Of a DNA stretch of 64,000 bases, positions 22,994 to 30,740 are shown piece after piece. This stretch comes from Stenotrophomonas maltophilia (GTDB lineage: Bacteria > Pseudomonadota > Gammaproteobacteria > Xanthomonadales > Xanthomonadaceae): contig NZ_CP106759.1 in assembly GCF_025642255.1 (NCBI RefSeq), positions 3,127,501 to 3,191,500 of the forward strand, given 5' to 3'. The position numbers and the translations under genes are program-made. The notes below the pieces were generated by a model. That model worked only from the letters and a program-made list of their open reading frames with translations. It was not told the DNA's origin and made no database searches. Position 1 is the first letter of the stretch; each line of letters starts with the position of its first letter.

Positions 22994-23090
22994 GTAGATC
23001 CACGCCAAGCGTGGATGGATCACTGTAGAGCCGAGCCCACGCTCGGCTTGGCCCTGACGCGAACCGCAGCCGAGCATGGCTCGGCTCTAC
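22994..23090. repeat. Cluster of three GTAG palindromes
   Basis: 22994-23017 (GTAGATCCACGC type), 23025-23048 (GTAGAGCCGAGC type) and 23067-23090 (same type, inverted). They lie upstream of the secreted hydrolase. The last two can pair with each other as a larger stem. Confidence 0.8.
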
Positions 23091-23659
23091 AACACATCGC
23101 TCTGGCGCGGACGACAACATCTCGATCGTCGCAAATGCACCGATTTTCGAGGGTACGACTCGCAGGCCTTGCCATCGCTGCAGGCGAAAGTCACGCCCAT
23201 TTTCCACGCGACACATCACGGCACGGTCGCCGCCACCCGCTGTTCTCGACAACTTCCAACGCGATAAACCGGGCGTAAGCATCAACACGTCGCGTGCTGT
23301 CGCTTGCCGCATCAGATGCGCCTGCGCCACCATCGGCGCGCGCCTTGGTTCCACATTTCTCTTCGGAGAATCCTCATTGAAATCCAAGCGTGTGCGTAAT
23401 CACCATGCAGCACCACCGACAACGGGTGGCACCGGGCCTGCAAGCCCATGATGACTGTAAGCATGTTGTTTGCGCTCACCCGCCGACACTGTCTCTGGAC
23501 CGTGCCGGCGGGTGATCCGTCGGCCTTCATGGCGGGCGGTGCGTGGGGGTTTTCGGACCCGCCGGTTAACTGCTTACTGTCATCCCGGCTTGCAGCCACG
23601 CATCGCCTGCCACCCGTCCTGCGCGGTGGCATTCCCACCCCAGCGCCGAGGAAGCCGAG
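23091..23659. other. Gene-poor stretch
   Basis: 569 bp with no convincing gene of ordinary size, less GC-rich than its surroundings in places. It holds an inverted repeat CACCCGCCG...CGGCGGGTG (about 23478-23513) and a tiny reading frame at 23377-23451 preceded by GGAGAA (24 residues, TTG start). A small RNA cannot be excluded. Confidence 0.5.
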
Positions 23660-24088: not shown

Positions 24089-24418
24089 ATGTTGAATGCA
24101 ATGATCGTCGTCGCACTGGCCGCAGGCCCAACCGCATCCGCACCGTATGGCGACTGCCTGCTCGCTAACCTCCAGCCCGGGCTGTCCGACCGTGCTGTGC
24201 AACTGGTGCAGCAGGCCTGCGCCGCGAAGCATCCCGACAGCTTCGCTGCATCGGTGGAACTGGAGCGCAGATACAGCGTCCAACGGCAGGCGCAGTTCGA
24301 TGCAGATCGTGCCACGGCGGAGCGGGCCGCGAACGCCGCCGCCCGCGCTGCGAATGTGGCTGCCACCGTGGCGGCGGAACGCGCAGCAGCAGAGGCCAAG
24401 GCTGCGACGGCGAAGTAG
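24089..24418 (+). CDS. Small exported Ala-rich protein
   Basis: Unrecognised 109-residue protein with a strong AAGGAGG site 6 bp before the ATG. A short hydrophobic N-terminus (AMIVVALAAGPTASA) may be a signal. Next comes a compact part with two cysteines (YGDCLLANLQ, QQACAAKHPDSF) ending in VELERRYSVQ, then a long Ala/Arg/Glu helix (ERAANAAARAANVAATVAAE) that probably forms a coiled coil. It lies 74 bp after the frameshifted gene and 57 bp before the next. Confidence 0.68.
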   Translation: MLNAMIVVALAAGPTASAPYGDCLLANLQPGLSDRAVQLVQQACAAKHPDSFAASVELERRYSVQRQAQFDADRATAERAANAAARAANVAATVAAERAAAEAKAATAK

Positions 24419-24475
24419 CCTCCACAGGAGGTGGGGAACGCACCCATTGATCGCTGTCCAAGGAAAGGAATTCCC

Positions 24476-24913
24476 ATGCAGATGACGTCGCTTGCTTTCG
24501 GCATCGCGCTGTTGACGAGTGTGTCTGTCGGCCCGGCACTGGCCGTTGCCGAGGCCACACCCGTGAAGGCGCGCACCACCGTGGAATCGCGGACGACCTG
24601 GCCAGCAGGCTCCGTCGAGGCCGCGTCCGTTCTGGCGTGGGTCAAGGCACGGTCTCCCGGCCATGCGCCCATCACCTCTGGGGGAGATATCTCGATTGTC
24701 CGCAGGCAGATTGAGCCGCAGCCGCTGACTCGAACATCCAGCGGCTCAACTGTGGAGCTGCCCGCCTCAGGGCGGCAGGGCGAGGCGATCACGATCACGA
24801 ATCGCCAGGCAGATGGCTCCATCGAAACCTGGGCCCATACAGGGATCGACAGCGGGTGGATGCTGGTTGAGTATCACTTCAAGCGCGGCTTCAGCCCCGA
24901 GAGCATCAAGTAA
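24476..24913 (+). CDS. Small secreted protein, unknown
   Basis: Unrecognised 145-residue protein with a Sec signal (SLAFGIALLTSVSVGPALAVAEA). The mature part has no cysteine, is Thr/Ser-rich and ends in beta-like strands (GEAITITNRQADGSIETW, GWMLVEYHFKRG). ATG 24476 follows AAGGAA; an in-frame start at 24431 lacks a good site. Same orientation and spacing as the preceding small gene. Confidence 0.65.
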   Translation: MQMTSLAFGIALLTSVSVGPALAVAEATPVKARTTVESRTTWPAGSVEAASVLAWVKARSPGHAPITSGGDISIVRRQIEPQPLTRTSSGSTVELPASGRQGEAITITNRQADGSIETWAHTGIDSGWMLVEYHFKRGFSPESIK

Positions 24914-25276
24914 TCGAGCTACGCTCCTGGGCTGCTGCTGGACCAAACGCGCCTCGCGCAAGCCGGCACCGCTTTTCAACTTGGCTCTGGCGCAACCGGC
25001 CTCTGGCAGCGGCGGCAATCTGGACGGAACGGCCCACGCGTCTGGCCGGCCACTGGCCGTGATCTGGGAGCAATGAAACTGGGTACTGGTCTGGCCGCAG
25101 CTGGCGTTGGGCCGGCGTAATGGTTGTTGCCACCATCACCTGCGTTCTGTGGACACGCGCGAGGCGAGTTCGGGAAACCACAATGTAGGAATTTCCCTAT
25201 AGCACGGAAATCGGAGAGCTGAAAGACTCTGAACCGCTCGTAGATGTCGAGCTAGCCAAGACCTAGAGGAGTGATT
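24914..25276 (+). other. Intergenic stretch, possible decayed gene
   Basis: 363 bp with only short, overlapping reading frames lacking ribosome sites. Base composition becomes AT-richer from about 25180. Nothing recognised. Confidence 0.4.
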
Positions 25277-25501
25277 ATGAAGACCCATAACATCCTGTTC
25301 GGTTTCATTGCTGTCACGATCGGTGCGATGTCTACAATTGGTGTGGTGCCTGAAGCGAAGGCCGCCGGCTTTCAAACAACCTGCAGCCCTCTCGGGGGTG
25401 GCTGGTACCAATGTACGGAAAAGTACTGCAACAACGATGGCTGCGTGGTTGTGAATACTTGGAGCCAGTTCTTCCAAGGCGATCAAGTGATCTTCGAGTA
25501 A
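25277..25501 (+). CDS. Small secreted four-cysteine protein
   Basis: 74-residue precursor with a clear signal peptide (ILFGFIAVTIGAMSTIGV...AKAA, cleavage after about residue 30). The mature part has ~44 residues and four cysteines (TTCSPLGGGWYQC, EKYCNNDGC), which could form two disulphides, and is rich in Gly, Trp and Asn. GAGGAG lies upstream of ATG 25277 and a hairpin follows the stop. Codon and base use are more AT-rich than neighbours, suggesting acquisition. No family recognised; toxin, inhibitor or adhesin-like roles are all possible. Confidence 0.68.
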   Translation: MKTHNILFGFIAVTIGAMSTIGVVPEAKAAGFQTTCSPLGGGWYQCTEKYCNNDGCVVVNTWSQFFQGDQVIFE

Positions 25502-25520
25502 CGTTCCCCACATGAACATC

Positions 25521-25546
25521 GGCGCAAAGGCTCAGGTCTTTGCGCC
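25521..25546 (+). terminator. Terminator-like hairpin
   Basis: GGCGCAAAG/CTTTGCGCC, a 9-bp perfect stem with 8-nt loop, 20 bp after the small secreted protein. It is followed by TTACC, so the T-run is weak. Confidence 0.65.
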
Positions 25547-25679
25547 TTACCCCAATTGGCAATTGCGATCGCTCGATTTGAAAGCAGAGATAGTCGATCA
25601 GGCGGCCGCAGCCAAGCACCGCGCGGAGCGGTGGATATTTTGCGGAGCGCGGGGGAAGGGCTGAAACCCTTGGTGCACA

Positions 25680-25724
25680 TGGTGGGCCGTGTAGGATTCG
25701 AACCTACGACCAAAAGATTAAAAG
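25680..25724 (-). other. Attachment-site repeat: 3' part of tRNA-Lys
   Basis: These 45 bases are identical to 27761-27805, the 3' part of the intact tRNA-Lys(TTT) gene (T arm, variable loop, anticodon 3' side, CCA). After 25724 the match stops and there is no D arm, so this is a truncated copy and the expected far end of an element that entered the tRNA gene. Confidence 0.88.
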
Positions 25725-25953
25725 AAAGCCGGCGCTTCCTTTGAAAACAACCGGTTGCGCCGCTCTATTTTTCCGCCCATCGAGCGTGGAACCATTGCAG
25801 GTCCTAAGCTCACTCGACAATTTTTCCGGCGTCTCAAGCGATATGCACGGGATCCACGACCAAGACTCCACCGTTTGGCGCCGGTTGCCGAGCCGTTGGC
25901 GAACTGGTGTGCCGCGACGTACAACCATCGCGAGCGTGCGGTCGGGAACGGCA

Positions 25954-25979
25954 CTGAGAAAGGCGCCCGGCAGGCGCCT
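25954..25979 (-). terminator. Terminator of the reductase gene
   Basis: AGGCGCC/GGCGCCT stem (7 bp, CGGCA loop) 20 bp beyond the reductase stop, followed on the minus strand by TTCTC. Confidence 0.55.
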
Positions 25980-25999
25980 CCTCCCAATCCAGCAGCACA

Positions 26000-26944
26000 T
26001 CAGGAGCGCTGCACGTTGGAATCCAGCCACGCCTGCACGCCCTGTAGCTCGGCCCCGACCTTCGCATTGAAGGTTCGCTCCACATCCCATGCAACGCCCC
26101 TCCCTTGGGCAAAGGCCGCGCGATACTTCTTTATCATGTTGCCCGGGTCGTTAGCCAGTTCCTGCATGAGCTGGGGCACACCCCAGATCGTCAGCTCGAA
26201 AGGTTCGCCGAACGCCTTCTGCAGAATATCCGGAAGGTCACCGTAGCGGATGGTGTCACCTGCCAGATAGACGATCTCGTTGCGGATCGCAGGTGTGCGG
26301 AACACGATGCGCGCTGTCATTGCGCCGATATCATCCGGCGTGGTCAAGGTGACAGCGTTGCTCGCCGAGCCCAAGGCGTTCACTTTATGCCCAGTCAAGT
26401 CGACCACGCCGAAGTCGGCCTCGAAGAGGTAGCTGGTGAACATCCCAGTGGAGATAATCACCCAGTCCATCGCAGTCTGCGAACGCAGATACTCGCGCAC
26501 GTCCAGCTGGGCGTCGAACAGATCCTGGGGGCCACCGCGCCCAATGGCATCGAAATCGACACCGAACTGCCAAGGGAAGTAGCGGGGAATACCAGACTTC
26601 ACCGCCGCACGCGCAACCTTCATTGGCGTATCGCGGCCTGCGGCATAGCCGGTGCATCCAATCACTGTGTCGAACTGCGCGAAGGTGGCCGCCAACGCTT
26701 CTACTGATTCAGTTACCAGATCGCCAGCAACGATATTCACCCCCAAGGCGCGGATTTCATCGACCACCCGCTGCTTCTCCGGCAGTTCTGAGTCGATCGA
26801 CGTCGCCCGTAGCATCACACTGATCCGTGTGCCTGGATGACTTACGGCCAAACGTGCAAGGTTCCGGATGACAGGCATTCCAAGCTCGCCTGCGCCGAGC
26901 ACCAGGATCGACCGAGAGGGGGTAGTGCTGATATGAGATGACAT
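26000..26944 (-). CDS. NmrA/isoflavone-reductase-like NAD(P)-binding protein
   Basis: Atypical short-chain reductase-like protein of 314 residues. The N-terminal dinucleotide site is ILVLGAGELGMPVIR (~13-27), followed by a PCBER/NmrA-type fold: DTVIGCTGYAAGRDTP, GIPRYFPWQFGVDFD and VIISTGMFTSYL. Members reduce aromatic alcohols or act as redox sensors; the substrate is unknown. It is divergent from an HxlR regulator across 73 bp, a common pairing in which the regulator controls the reductase. It lies inside the tRNA-Lys-bounded segment. Confidence 0.85.
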   Translation of the reverse strand: MSSHISTTPSRSILVLGAGELGMPVIRNLARLAVSHPGTRISVMLRATSIDSELPEKQRVVDEIRALGVNIVAGDLVTESVEALAATFAQFDTVIGCTGYAAGRDTPMKVARAAVKSGIPRYFPWQFGVDFDAIGRGGPQDLFDAQLDVREYLRSQTAMDWVIISTGMFTSYLFEADFGVVDLTGHKVNALGSASNAVTLTTPDDIGAMTARIVFRTPAIRNEIVYLAGDTIRYGDLPDILQKAFGEPFELTIWGVPQLMQELANDPGNMIKKYRAAFAQGRGVAWDVERTFNAKVGAELQGVQAWLDSNVQRS

Positions 26945-27017
26945 GGAAACCGCCTTGTGTGTGTACGATGGCGGCGATTCTGCTCACCTAATGGCCCATA
27001 CGTAAGAAGGCACATCG
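26945..27017. promoter_or_regulatory. Divergent promoter region, reductase/HxlR
   Basis: 73-bp gap between the two start codons; it must hold both promoters and probably the HxlR operator. No clear -35/-10 pair was fixed by eye. Confidence 0.5.
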
Positions 27018-27443
27018 ATGATACCGACCGCCCCGTTCATGAGTCCGGAAGAACTCCTAAGGCACTCTCAAGCCATATGCGACGGGATGAGCGAGGACGA
27101 AGATGGACTGCGCCGGGAGGTTTTAGCGCACGCTGGTAGCCGCTGGTCCCTGGGCATCATCCATGCGCTTGGCGTGTATGGAACGCTGCGTCATGCCGAG
27201 GTCGCGCGACGGATGAAGGGGATCACCCAGCGCATGCTTACGCGCACCCTCCGGCAATTGGAACGTGACGGGTTGATCAGCCGGCAGGATTTCCACGAAG
27301 TACCGCCACATGTGGAGTACAGCATCACAGCGCTGGGCAAGGACCTTCTTGTACTGATGATTCCCATGTGGACATGGGTAGTGGCTCATGCGGAGGAATT
27401 CCGCCAATGTCGGCAGAATTTTGATTCTTCAGACGGGAAATGA
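27018..27443 (+). CDS. HxlR-family transcriptional regulator
   Basis: DNA-binding regulator of 141 residues. The winged helix-turn-helix shows the HxlR pattern: SRWSLGIIHALGVYGTLRHAEVARRMKGITQRMLTRTLRQLERDGLI in its order, then the wing DFHEVPPHVEYSITALGKDLL. The usual N-terminal cysteine sensor is replaced: the only N-terminal Cys is C24 in AICDG. It probably controls itself and the divergent reductase in response to an electrophile or redox signal. Confidence 0.88.
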   Translation: MIPTAPFMSPEELLRHSQAICDGMSEDEDGLRREVLAHAGSRWSLGIIHALGVYGTLRHAEVARRMKGITQRMLTRTLRQLERDGLISRQDFHEVPPHVEYSITALGKDLLVLMIPMWTWVVAHAEEFRQCRQNFDSSDGK

Positions 27444-27719
27444 AGATATAGGCCAGCAGCGGCGCAAGGTAGCTTCACCCACTGGGGGGATGCTCCAGCG
27501 CGTCATCACCGAGGTATTCGCGTCGGTCACATCCGACGCCAAGCGTTTGGCCTTGTGAGGGCTACAACATCGGGGCGTCACCGAAGGCGGCCGCAAGACC
27601 GCATGTGGTCACCTCACCGAAGAGATGCGACAGCGACACGACCACGAACTGCCGGTGGTTCAACCGCCTCATAAGCCGCACGTGCTCGAGCGTGGAACCA
27701 CTTAATTTTTCCGGAAATA
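27444..27719. other. Island tail without a clear gene
   Basis: 276 bp with no supportable gene. A 22-codon frame at 27490-27558 (MLQRVITEVFASV...) looks like the end of a lost protein but has no ribosome site. 27686-27714 repeats sequence from the other end of the segment. Confidence 0.45.
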
Positions 27720-27720
27720 T

Positions 27721-27744
27721 GAAAAAGGCGCCGCAAGGGCGCCT
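27721..27744 (-). terminator. tRNA-Lys terminator
   Basis: AGGCGCC/GGCGCCT stem with GCAAG loop, followed on the minus strand by TTTTTC, 17 bp beyond the CCA end of the tRNA. Confidence 0.75.
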
Positions 27745-27760
27745 AAGTCGTTGATGCAAT

Positions 27761-27836
27761 TGGTGGGCCGTGTAGGATTCGAACCTACGACCAAAAGATT
27801 AAAAGTCTTCTGCTCTACCGACTGAGCTAACGGCCC
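27761..27836 (-). tRNA. tRNA-Lys (anticodon TTT)
   Basis: 76-nt tRNA with encoded CCA. The 7-bp acceptor stem GGGCCGT/ACGGCCC is intact. The D arm (GCTCAGTCGGTAGAGC), anticodon loop CTTTTAA with anticodon TTT, variable loop and T arm (GTAGGTTCGAATCCTAC) are all present. Its 3' 45 bases form the right attachment repeat of the mini-island. Confidence 0.96.
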
Positions 27837-28011
27837 GGTGCACTGCCCCAGCCGAGTGGCGGGGGTGGGCATTCTACCCCACTTTCCCACGCGACGCGAA
27901 ACCCCAGACCCGCAGCCCGGGCAATCAAGCGCCCGGGCAGCCGGCTTGAACCGGGTTAAACCTTCCGCCCGCACCGCGCATCCCATCCCTGATCCCCACT
28001 GGAGAGCCTGG

Positions 28012-28968
28012 ATGCGCCGCTGCCTGCCCCTGATCGCCGCACTGCTGTTGCCCGGCGCCGCGCTGGCAGCGCCGTCCCCGGTGCGTAGCGACGACATCGC
28101 CCGCTTCTGGGCCACCTACGATGCCGTCCGCACCGAACCCGATGCCGAGCGCCGGGTGGCGCTCGTGCAGCAGCACTACGTCGACCCGGGCAGTCCCGGC
28201 CTGCATGCGCTGATGCAGGTCCGCAATTACACCGCGCGCGAGTATGCCGAGGCCATGCGCGCGTGGCCGCGGTTCTGGAACTCGGTAAGGCCACTGACAA
28301 CCAACGCCCGCAGTGCCAGCGCGACGCTGGAACAGGATCTCATGGCCTTCCGCACGCTCTACCCCTCCCTGCGCCCGGCCACGATCACCTATGCGGTGGG
28401 CGTGCTGCGTACCGGCGGCACCACGCTGGGCGACCAGGTGCTGATCGGTGCGGAGATGGCACTGGGCGACGAGCGCGTGGATGTCAGCGAACTGCCGGAG
28501 CCGATGCGCAGCCGCCTGCGCATCTTCTATGACAGCCGCCCCGGCGCGAACAACGCGCAGAACAACCTGCATGAGTATGTGCACACCCAGCAACGCGAGA
28601 CCACCGGCAATCTGGCGCAGTACGCGGTACGCGAGGGTGTGGCCGAGTACATCGCCGAGCGCATCAGCGGCAGGCGCCCTGCCCTGCCGCTCTATGACTA
28701 CGGCCCGCTGCACGAGGCGGAGATACGTACCCGGTTCATCGCCGAGATGGACGGCGATGACCTGGACAACTGGCTGTACAACAGTGCCCGCAATCCGTTC
28801 GGCGTGAGCGACGTGGGCTACTACGCCGGCTATCGCATCGCGCAGGAGTACGTGCGCCGGCAGGCCGATGAGAAGGCGGGGATCGCGCGGATGATCGAGC
28901 TGGACTACGCCGATCCCAAGGGGGTGCGGGCCTTCATCGAAGCTTCGGGTTGGTTGCAGCAGCGGTAG
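28012..28968 (+). CDS. Exported HExxH putative zinc metalloprotease
   Basis: Protein of 318 residues with a Sec signal (LPLIAALLLPGAALAA). The zinc-binding HExxH is seen in NLHEYVHTQQ (about residues 184-193), with a likely third ligand in the following helix REGVAEYIAE, the layout of DUF2268-like putative metallopeptidases. A Tyr-rich C-terminus (DVGYYAGYRIAQEYV) follows. ATG 28012 is chosen because the signal peptide begins there. Its TAG stop is within a GTAG repeat. The substrate is unknown. Confidence 0.78.
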   Translation: MRRCLPLIAALLLPGAALAAPSPVRSDDIARFWATYDAVRTEPDAERRVALVQQHYVDPGSPGLHALMQVRNYTAREYAEAMRAWPRFWNSVRPLTTNARSASATLEQDLMAFRTLYPSLRPATITYAVGVLRTGGTTLGDQVLIGAEMALGDERVDVSELPEPMRSRLRIFYDSRPGANNAQNNLHEYVHTQQRETTGNLAQYAVREGVAEYIAERISGRRPALPLYDYGPLHEAEIRTRFIAEMDGDDLDNWLYNSARNPFGVSDVGYYAGYRIAQEYVRRQADEKAGIARMIELDYADPKGVRAFIEASGWLQQR

Positions 28969-29060
28969 CGCCGGGCCATGCCCGGCGCACAGTGCCAACC
29001 AAGGTTGGCACCCACCAGCGTCAGACCTGCCCGGCGCTCAGTGCCAACCAAGGTTGGCAC
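28965..29060. repeat. SMAG repeat and two GTGCCAACC palindromes
   Basis: 28965-28986 is a GTAGCGCCGGGC palindrome that includes the stop codon of the metalloprotease gene. 28992-29011 and 29041-29060 are two copies of the palindrome GTGCCAACCAAGGTTGGCAC, each followed by CCACC. They separate convergent genes and could end transcription from both sides. Confidence 0.8.
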
Positions 29061-30533: not shown

Positions 30534-30591
30534 GGCGGGAGCTTCTTTGTGGGACACGTGGCGGATGGGCTACCGTGGCCGGTAACGAAAG

Positions 30592-30740
30592 CAGCCGAGC
30601 ATGGCTCGGCTCTACAACAGCAACCGGACGGGCATGGCCCAGCCGGTGACGCGAGCCGCCGGGCATGGCCCGGCGCTACCGGATCCGGGCGGGTTGGCCG
30701 ATCCGGAAACGAAAGCAGCCGAGCATGAGCTCGGCGCTAC
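30592..30740 (-). repeat. Three SMAG repeats in a row
   Basis: Same-orientation palindromes ending in CTAC at 30592-30614, 30656-30679 and 30716-30740 fill the cpoB-queE gap. They vary in arm sequence (GCCGAGC, GCCGGGC, GCCGAGC) but keep the terminal GTAG on the minus strand. Confidence 0.82.

Follow-up and report, generated by a model that had tools for sequence, protein, structure and literature searches.

A 2.1-kb, probably prophage-derived and non-autonomous mini-element at a tRNA-Lys gene of Stenotrophomonas maltophilia

Results

Layout of the locus

The window analyzed here is a stretch of 64,000 nucleotides from the S. maltophilia genome that we call G000 (4,120,518 bases in one contig). 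The only tRNA gene in the window is a tRNA-Lys (TTT), the 3′ part of which is repeated exactly, over 45 bp, at the far end of a unit that spans positions 25,680–27,805, amounts to 2,081 bp and holds two intact genes (Table 1). With imperfect matches the repeat extends to 55 nt at 95% identity. By our own arithmetic, an exact match of 45 bp is far beyond what chance would give for this length, and no third copy exists in the genome when up to three mismatches are allowed. ARAGORN finds the tRNA gene on the right to be intact, and the initial annotation was therefore correct on both the repeat and the tRNA. The GC content is ~53–61% across roughly 25.0–27.7 kb versus ~66% in most of the surrounding intervals. 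Having repeats at both ends, an intact tRNA and empty sites in relatives, the unit is a tRNA-targeted genomic island.

The contents had been described as only a reductase and an HxlR regulator. Pfam bears out both genes, but the description overlooked an integrase stub and the repeats in the arms. Annotated relatives of the reductase are named "aromatic alcohol reductase", and its relatives in the PDB are phenylcoumaran benzylic ether, isoflavone and pinoresinol reductases; searches of NCBIfam and PHROGs with this protein gave no match. The PDB relatives of the regulator are HxlR, YodB and YybR; NCBIfam returns only sub-cut-off matches to redox regulators, and PHROGs a single family of unknown function. 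The cassette resembles NmrA-type reductases adjoining HxlR-type redox regulators, and we would guess that it serves under redox stress caused by quinones or aromatic compounds.

Relatives of the cassette with 72–77% DNA identity lie away from the tRNA-Lys site in genomes of the genus (G003, G019, G020, G024 and G053), and a family-wide search found relatives of 76–78% in two genomes of another genus of the same family. A plasmid origin was considered and rejected: among 72,556 plasmid records none covers 80% of the interior, while 58 carry distant (60–80%) relatives of the cassette. A phage source was likewise considered, in the form of the gene pair that Escherichia phage PHB10 carries among other metabolic genes, but at 67% this relative is too distant to be the source.

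Table 1. Features of the unit and its left neighbor (positions in the window).
Feature	Position	Strand	Remarks
Remnant of second island (A), outside the 2.1-kb unit	24400..25679		TTTTGCGGAGCG repeats in right end are of a different integrase type (family II); cf. ends in G037, G078
Left attachment repeat, displaced copy of tRNA-Lys 3′ part	25680..25724	+	45 bp, exact repeat
Left end, phage-type arm region	25725..25990	+	
Putative arm site L42, TATTTTTCCGC	25766..25776	+	2 mismatches to AATTTTTCCGG; position common to 5/8 non-mini family-I islands
CGTGGAACCATT, repeated at other end of unit	25785..25796	+	
Putative arm site L95, AATTTTTCCGG, exact	25819..25829	+	7/8 non-mini family-I islands at 94–95, ≤2 mismatches
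NmrA-family NAD(P)-binding reductase, 314 aa	26000..26944	-	Pfam NmrA, E 4e-19
HxlR-family HTH regulator, 141 aa, divergent from reductase	27018..27443	+	Pfam HxlR, E 2.2e-23
Broken 3′ stub, P2-type tyrosine integrase	27475..27702	+	Residues 322–398 of intact 398-aa protein, 59% identity, one TGA
CGTGGAACCACT, end of stub and repeat of 25785–25796	27691..27702	+	
Putative arm site R-58, AATTTTTCCGG, exact	27704..27714	+	Neighboring R-70 of other family-I islands missing
GC-rich hairpin (AAAAAGGCGCC...GGCGCC) between stub and att	27722..27745	+	Read by eye; same in intact islands
Right attachment repeat, within tRNA gene	27761..27805	+	
tRNA-Lys (TTT), intact, integration target	27761..27836	-	ARAGORN

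An integrase stub and its intact relatives

The initial annotation had the segment without an integrase, which does not hold: beyond the regulator gene lies what is left of a tyrosine integrase, namely its broken C-terminus, interrupted by a TGA. The stub corresponds to the tRNA-proximal 228 bp, and one frame of 27,440–27,762 reads as an integrase C-terminus with this TGA. Intact 398-residue relatives (family I) are found at tRNA-Lys in three of 91 genomes of the genus, namely G022 (the query itself), G048 (96%) and G059 (88%). Pfam names no family for the intact protein at E 0.001, PHROGs labels it "integrase", and the integrase of phage Smp131 is 53% identical to it. Around the intact integrase of G048 lies an island of 35.4 kb, the only one of these three islands that was scanned gene by gene; PHROGs identifies portal, large terminase, major head, tail fiber, tail sheath, tape measure, head closure and primase proteins among the 10 proteins scanned, two of which matched only families of unknown function. 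Because of these structural, packaging and primase proteins we regard the G048 island as a P2-like prophage.

The unit itself consists of two intact genes and the stub; the structural, packaging and replication genes of a P2-like prophage are absent from it, and genes for transfer or for a functional recombinase are likewise lacking. Nor does the rest of G000 encode an intact family-I integrase, the stub being the sole match both to a C-terminal fragment (E 1e-3) and to the whole protein (E 1e-20). The same genome gives six matches to PF00589, five of them above the cut-off, in a scan that is blind to the family-I type, given that this type is missed by Pfam at E 0.001.

The ends carry putative arm sites

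The sequence just inside the left repeat is of phage type, and 25,668–25,877 matches the left end of an 8.7-kb island in G083 at 76%. Both ends contain short repeats, of which AATTTTTCCGG, with at most one mismatch, occurs twice in the 64 kb, both times at the ends of the unit (expected 0.19; two occurrences reached in 2 of 100 shuffles). For CGTGGAACCAYT there are three matches in the window, of which the two at the ends are exact; none of 100 shuffles gave three.

We compared 127–130 bp beside the core on each side in 26 island copies, comprising six copies of the mini-island, eight other family-I islands and 12 islands of other types. Seven of the eight family-I islands were assigned because their integrase or stub matches the family-I protein with E ≤1e-20, whereas for G027 the grounds were the repeats and a weak match of the stub (41%), which makes its membership partly circular. 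With up to two mismatches allowed, these eight, G027 included, have AATTTTTCCGG at L42 (5/8), L94–95 (7/8), R-70/-69 (8/8) and R-58/-57 (8/8). The mini copies have it at L42 (5/6), L95 (6/6) and R-58 (6/6), and none of the six has it at R-70. A single match, elsewhere in the arm, was found in the 12 islands of other types; islands with other integrases carry other repeats, such as TTTCAGGAG in G074, TTACGGAGG in G021 and TTTTCCCAA in G075. A more general measure is the longest string common to both arms. For 10 of the 26 copies over 5% of shuffles matched it, so that it is a weak test for any single island when used alone; for the unit in the window none of 200 shuffles did. The doubled arm motif of intact prophages did not turn up in a scan of viral contigs.

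The unit thus keeps three of the four putative integrase arm sites, one of which (L42) is degenerate, at the positions seen in family-I islands. It is these conserved positions that suggest an arm function, and the sites may be weak ones, since R-70 is missing from every mini copy and L42 is degenerate.

Distribution and empty sites

The unit is present in five of the 91 genus genomes (G000, G009, G038, G042 and G063), a small sample of copies from a set with one genome per species, and the att core, with up to three mismatches, in 89 of them. The intact family-I integrase is absent from all five carriers. In a family-wide search of 395 genomes, 34 of them from the genus including G000 itself, G000 and G042 alone had the unit at >90%; G009, G038 and G063 did not belong to that sample.

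The right flank could be aligned over ~1.2 kb at ≥79% in 36 genomes. In 14 of these (G003, G024, G025, G032, G034, G035, G039, G041, G043, G044, G053, G060, G061 and G082) the site is empty, the conserved left flank being separated from the tRNA by only 109–144 bp. The five carriers are likewise among the 36, and in the remaining 17 the gap is at least 340 bp, or the left flank falls outside the stretch compared. G035 has a further insertion more to the left of its empty site. The gaps in G009 (2,229 bp) and G063 (2,221 bp) equal an empty gap plus one unit, and the unit is alone there: the outer sequences match those of empty sites, and the distance from the conserved flank to the left repeat is ~138–146 bp, comparable to the 109–144 bp that separate flank and tRNA in empty sites. 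These two genomes therefore represent two other species with nothing but the unit on an otherwise empty site. The comparison suggested by the initial annotation, with tRNA-Lys loci of relatives, thus yielded empty sites, and the segment turned out to be far from universal in the genus. The locus is also a hotspot, occupied by other islands in some genomes.

Neighbors of the unit

To the left of the left repeat, the DNA from ~24.4 to 25.68 kb has no counterpart in empty sites, and its end resembles that of second-type islands, which is why we take the mini-island to adjoin the remnant of a second island. A degenerate att at the left border of this remnant was looked for between 24,300 and 25,670 and not found, the best local score being 17 versus a control mean of 19.1, and reached by 167 of 181 control stretches.

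The neighbor on this side varies between copies: G009 and G063 have the chromosome there, G042 an end with a GGCGCC hairpin, and G000, G038 and the IMG/VR contig G453 a family-II end. On the right, the metagenomic IMG/VR contigs G453 and G452 have a family-I left end next to the repeat, with P2-like genes ~8.4 kb and ~2.7 kb further on, respectively; these genes are 79–80% identical to G048 over 5.0 and 9.0 kb, the end in G452 is 91–93% identical to the island end of G022 over 0.5 and 0.7 kb, and both contigs stop before the prophage integrase. In G455, classed as viral in IMG/VR, the right end of the unit is followed by an end of the second type (family II). Altogether, five genomes have the unit directly at the tRNA, and three contigs have it to the left of phage-type ends.

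Spread between species

Identity per 100 bp to the copies in G009, G063 and G038 is 86–100% over 25,701–27,800 and 52–56% at 27,901–28,000. On the left it drops at the repeat in G009 and G063; in G038 the similarity continues for 57 bp past the repeat, to 25,623, because G000 and G038 share the type of neighboring island end. The interior is 95–97% identical between species, against 79–85% for the flanks of G000 compared with G009, G063 and G038. For single pairs, the interior and flank values are 97.2% versus 79–85% for G000 and G009, and 97.9% versus 79–84% for G042 and G038, while G000 and G042, which are conspecific according to the tool used, show 94.0% in the interior versus 95–97% in the flanks. 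The sites that divide the five copies two against three tell the same story: within the unit 49 group G042 with G038 and none group G000 with G042, whereas in the right flank the numbers are 3 and 134. As the tree of the unit contradicts that of the species, and the interior is more alike than the flanks, we conclude that the segment spread as a unit. The same counts make it most likely that G000 and G042 acquired it separately. In G042, moreover, the displaced left copy of the repeat is the T/A variant of the G000 tRNA, and the tRNA has the A/T variant of other species, which fits integration at the anticodon side of the tRNA by an element that brings a new 3′ part of the tRNA.

These data also bear on whether the unit itself moved. 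It could be proposed that each host already had a family-I island at its tRNA, and that homologous recombination in the shared ends merely brought in the cassette. Other family-I islands with the same ends do occur at tRNA-Lys, and the ends are mosaic between copies: those of G009 and G038 are 99.4% identical on the right but 91.0% on the left, and the right end of G042 looks recut, having been replaced by a prophage-like end. Homologous exchange in the ends therefore also takes place. As an account of the spread it is nevertheless unlikely, given that the ends of G000, G009 and G063 are 93.6–96.4% identical, close to the cassette (97.4–97.9%) and well above the G000 flanks; in addition, all mini copies, even the recut G042, lack the R-70 site that every other family-I island has. 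This common loss suggests that the ends traveled with the cassette.

We regard it as improbable that the unit is the dead remnant of a prophage, carried along in long segments by transformation or generalized transduction and inserted via homologous recombination in the chromosomal flanks. Homologous recombination of such segments is ordinary in bacteria, the carriers are related species, the unit lacks an intact integrase, and the left flank at 23.5–24.0 kb is more similar to G009 (87–96% per 100 bp) and G063 (78–93%) than the rest. However, identity is only 64–87% at 24.0–24.4 kb and falls to the right of the repeat, and the left neighbors of the copies differ.

Spread of the segment as a unit is further characterized by the junction between the HxlR gene and the stub, which is common to G000, G009, G063 and G038; G042 is recut there. 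The IMG/VR contigs G453 and G452 align with 25,663–27,805 at 96% and with 25,932–27,805 at 97%, respectively, unbroken through this junction, and for these reasons we conclude that the integrase was lost before the spread. That an autonomous, phage- or island-borne form with an intact integrase spread instead, and shrank separately in each lineage, is therefore very hard to credit, even though the differing lengths of the integrase stubs in which other islands at this site end point to frequent decay here.

Discussion

Proposed origin and movement

The unit is probably a non-autonomous integrative mini-element that derives from a P2-like prophage and is moved by the integrase of related phages, either in trans or as part of a tandem composite. 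The initial annotation had left a choice between a non-autonomous element and a shrunken island. The P2-like ends and the 3′ stub of the integrase support shrinkage; copies with the same stub junction in several species, their discordant phylogeny and the boundaries at both repeats in G009 and G063 lead us to think that the segment behaved as a non-autonomous element. The two alternatives are thus supported as parts of one history.

In this history, a P2-like phage would have inserted at the 3′ end of tRNA-Lys and then lost everything between its ends except for the last ~77 codons of the integrase, with the reductase/HxlR cassette in its place. What the recombinase needs in cis would have been kept, that is, the core repeats and two arm regions, one past the left repeat and the other where the integrase gene ends, and the element would still have passed between species after the loss of the integrase. 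A related P2-like phage may supply the integrase in trans, acting on the att sites of the mini-element; a family-I integrase would then excise the unit via its two cores and insert it at the tRNA-Lys of a new host. Alternatively, acting in cis, phage and mini-element in tandem may leave as one composite and later be split, and the prophage may subsequently leave alone. Such a composite would measure ~37–40 kb if the partner resembles the 35–38-kb islands of G022, G048 and G059. Genome comparison establishes the unit with its boundaries, the empty sites, the stub, the spread and the tandems with prophage ends; arm function, the identity of the helper, excision, packaging and any benefit of the cassette we infer.

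The unit would then be a minimal natural case, with 2.1 kb, two genes and two ends, of apparent spread between species after loss of the recombinase. It offers a concrete system for asking if a phage integrase can act in trans on foreign cargo, and which of the arm sites suffice for this. Other stub-ended islands at the same tRNA-Lys site carry known or candidate defense genes (KwaB, ShosA/ShosT and PDC-S33). We therefore suggest, tentatively, that there may be a class of tRNA-Lys cargo elements in Stenotrophomonas that have P2-phage arm sites and a short stub but no working integrase, and that P2-like phages sharing the site carry from species to species through their integrases, and perhaps their capsids. 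Defense and redox cassettes would then use phage ends as their vehicle. If movement by helpers is real, it would help to explain the transfer of some defense cassettes that have no visible mobility genes, and why they would escape island finders for which an integrase is a requirement.

Comparison with known systems

P4-like satellites and PICIs are small and depend on a helper phage, but they encode their own integrase and carry helper-interference or packaging genes, whereas the unit has no intact integrase and contains only the reductase, the HxlR regulator and the stub. MITE-like elements are short units set by the cis-acting ends of an autonomous relative; the present unit is different in that its ends are direct repeats of the site-specific tyrosine recombinase type, that its target, a tRNA gene, is fixed, and that it contains a cassette of coding genes.

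A closer likeness is to CIMEs, described as elements without integration and transfer genes that have kept attL and attR (PMC5704250); 15 islands of Dehalococcoides that lack the integration module are discussed likewise (PMC3146451). Like the ICESt1-related Streptococcus elements and the integrase-less ssrA islands of Dehalococcoides treated in these papers, the unit has lost the recombinase and is flanked by attL and attR; in two contigs it is followed by the left ends of P2-like prophages. CIMEs, however, derive from an ICE or IME, while the ends and the stub of the unit are those of a P2-like prophage integrase type; it is, moreover, only 2.1 kb long, and its proposed movement is read from sequence comparison. 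Most cautiously, we would call it a prophage-derived, non-autonomous mini-element of tRNA-Lys, CIME-like in its working. We found no published description of the mini-island in the literature searched, which mostly excludes subscription journals, and the parts of PMC11680222 that deal with S. maltophilia defense islands describe tRNA genes at the majority of these islands and mention no integrase-stub islands.

The ends also resemble those of xanthomonad P2-like prophages. Xanthomonas prophages use a 45-bp tRNA-Lys target, and in Smp131 the integrase gene is followed by two copies of AATTTTACCGG and then by an inverted repeat (PMC3931495), an arrangement of doubled AATTTT(A/T)CCGG and hairpin after the integrase that resembles the right end of the unit, where R-58 and a hairpin follow the stub. 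The unit differs from these prophages in retaining no phage gene save the stub, and Smp131 itself resides at tRNA-Thr. The section of PMC3931495 that proposes the Smp131 repeats as integrase sites gives none on the other side, but in our own search TTTTTTACCGG, with two mismatches, was found there, at L93 of Smp131.

Arm repeats and att variants at tRNA-Lys

Paired arm repeats, the putative integrase arm sites beside the 45-bp att core, were compared at the island ends of the genomes G074, G021, G075, and G090/G004 (loci L046, L089–L095, and L104). Their sequence varies with island type, while their distance from the core is often similar, as if arm repeat and integrase co-varied. In phage Smp131 (locus L106), TTTTTTACCGG and GCGTGAAACCA lie ~93 bp past the att core, close to the left-arm repeat positions of the tRNA-Lys islands studied here; the Smp131 paper reports no repeats on that side (PMC3931495).

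Copies of att are present in 89 of the 91 genomes of the genus. The 3' part of tRNA-Lys (gene at 27761-27836 of the window) occurs there in three paired forms (AAGG/CCTT, ATGG/CCAT, and TAGG/CCTA), which are also borne by att copies and can serve as tracers of which copy arrived with an element.

Neighboring and related elements

A second foreign stretch lies in tandem with the mini-island, on its left, and comparison of ends assigns its right end to an integrase type different from that of the mini-island. G042, a mini-island carrier of the same species, shares this stretch up to 24925 (93%), whereas the remainder differs. Searches of Pfam, NCBIfam, and PHROG gave no match for its two small ORFs.

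Several other islands at the same tRNA-Lys likewise end in an integrase stub, with only ~57–94 C-terminal residues left. As a group, they yielded KwaB (Kiwa), PDC-M11A, ShosA/ShosT, and PDC-S33 with PADLOC, and a PIN-domain protein with Pfam.

Positions of features in the window and compared loci
Feature	Sequence	Position
Second foreign stretch	window	24400-25679
Small ORF within it	window	24431-24913
Small ORF within it	window	25271-25501
Stub-ended island	L041	8028-11389
Stub-ended island	L042	7201-9394
Stub-ended island	L044	9551-10615
Stub-ended island	L037	13168-14724
Metabolic gene block	L105 (Escherichia phage PHB10)	1242-9384
Short GC-rich repeats (repeat search)	window	23066-23094; 30591-30619; 30657-30681; 28963-28987

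The record of Escherichia phage PHB10 holds a metabolic gene block, comprising two LysR regulators, an aldo/keto reductase, MdaB, and an aromatic alcohol reductase with a regulator, flanked by replication genes on one side and antitermination genes on the other. Several sites in the window share short GC-rich repeats of palindromic appearance, which we take to be of the REP type.
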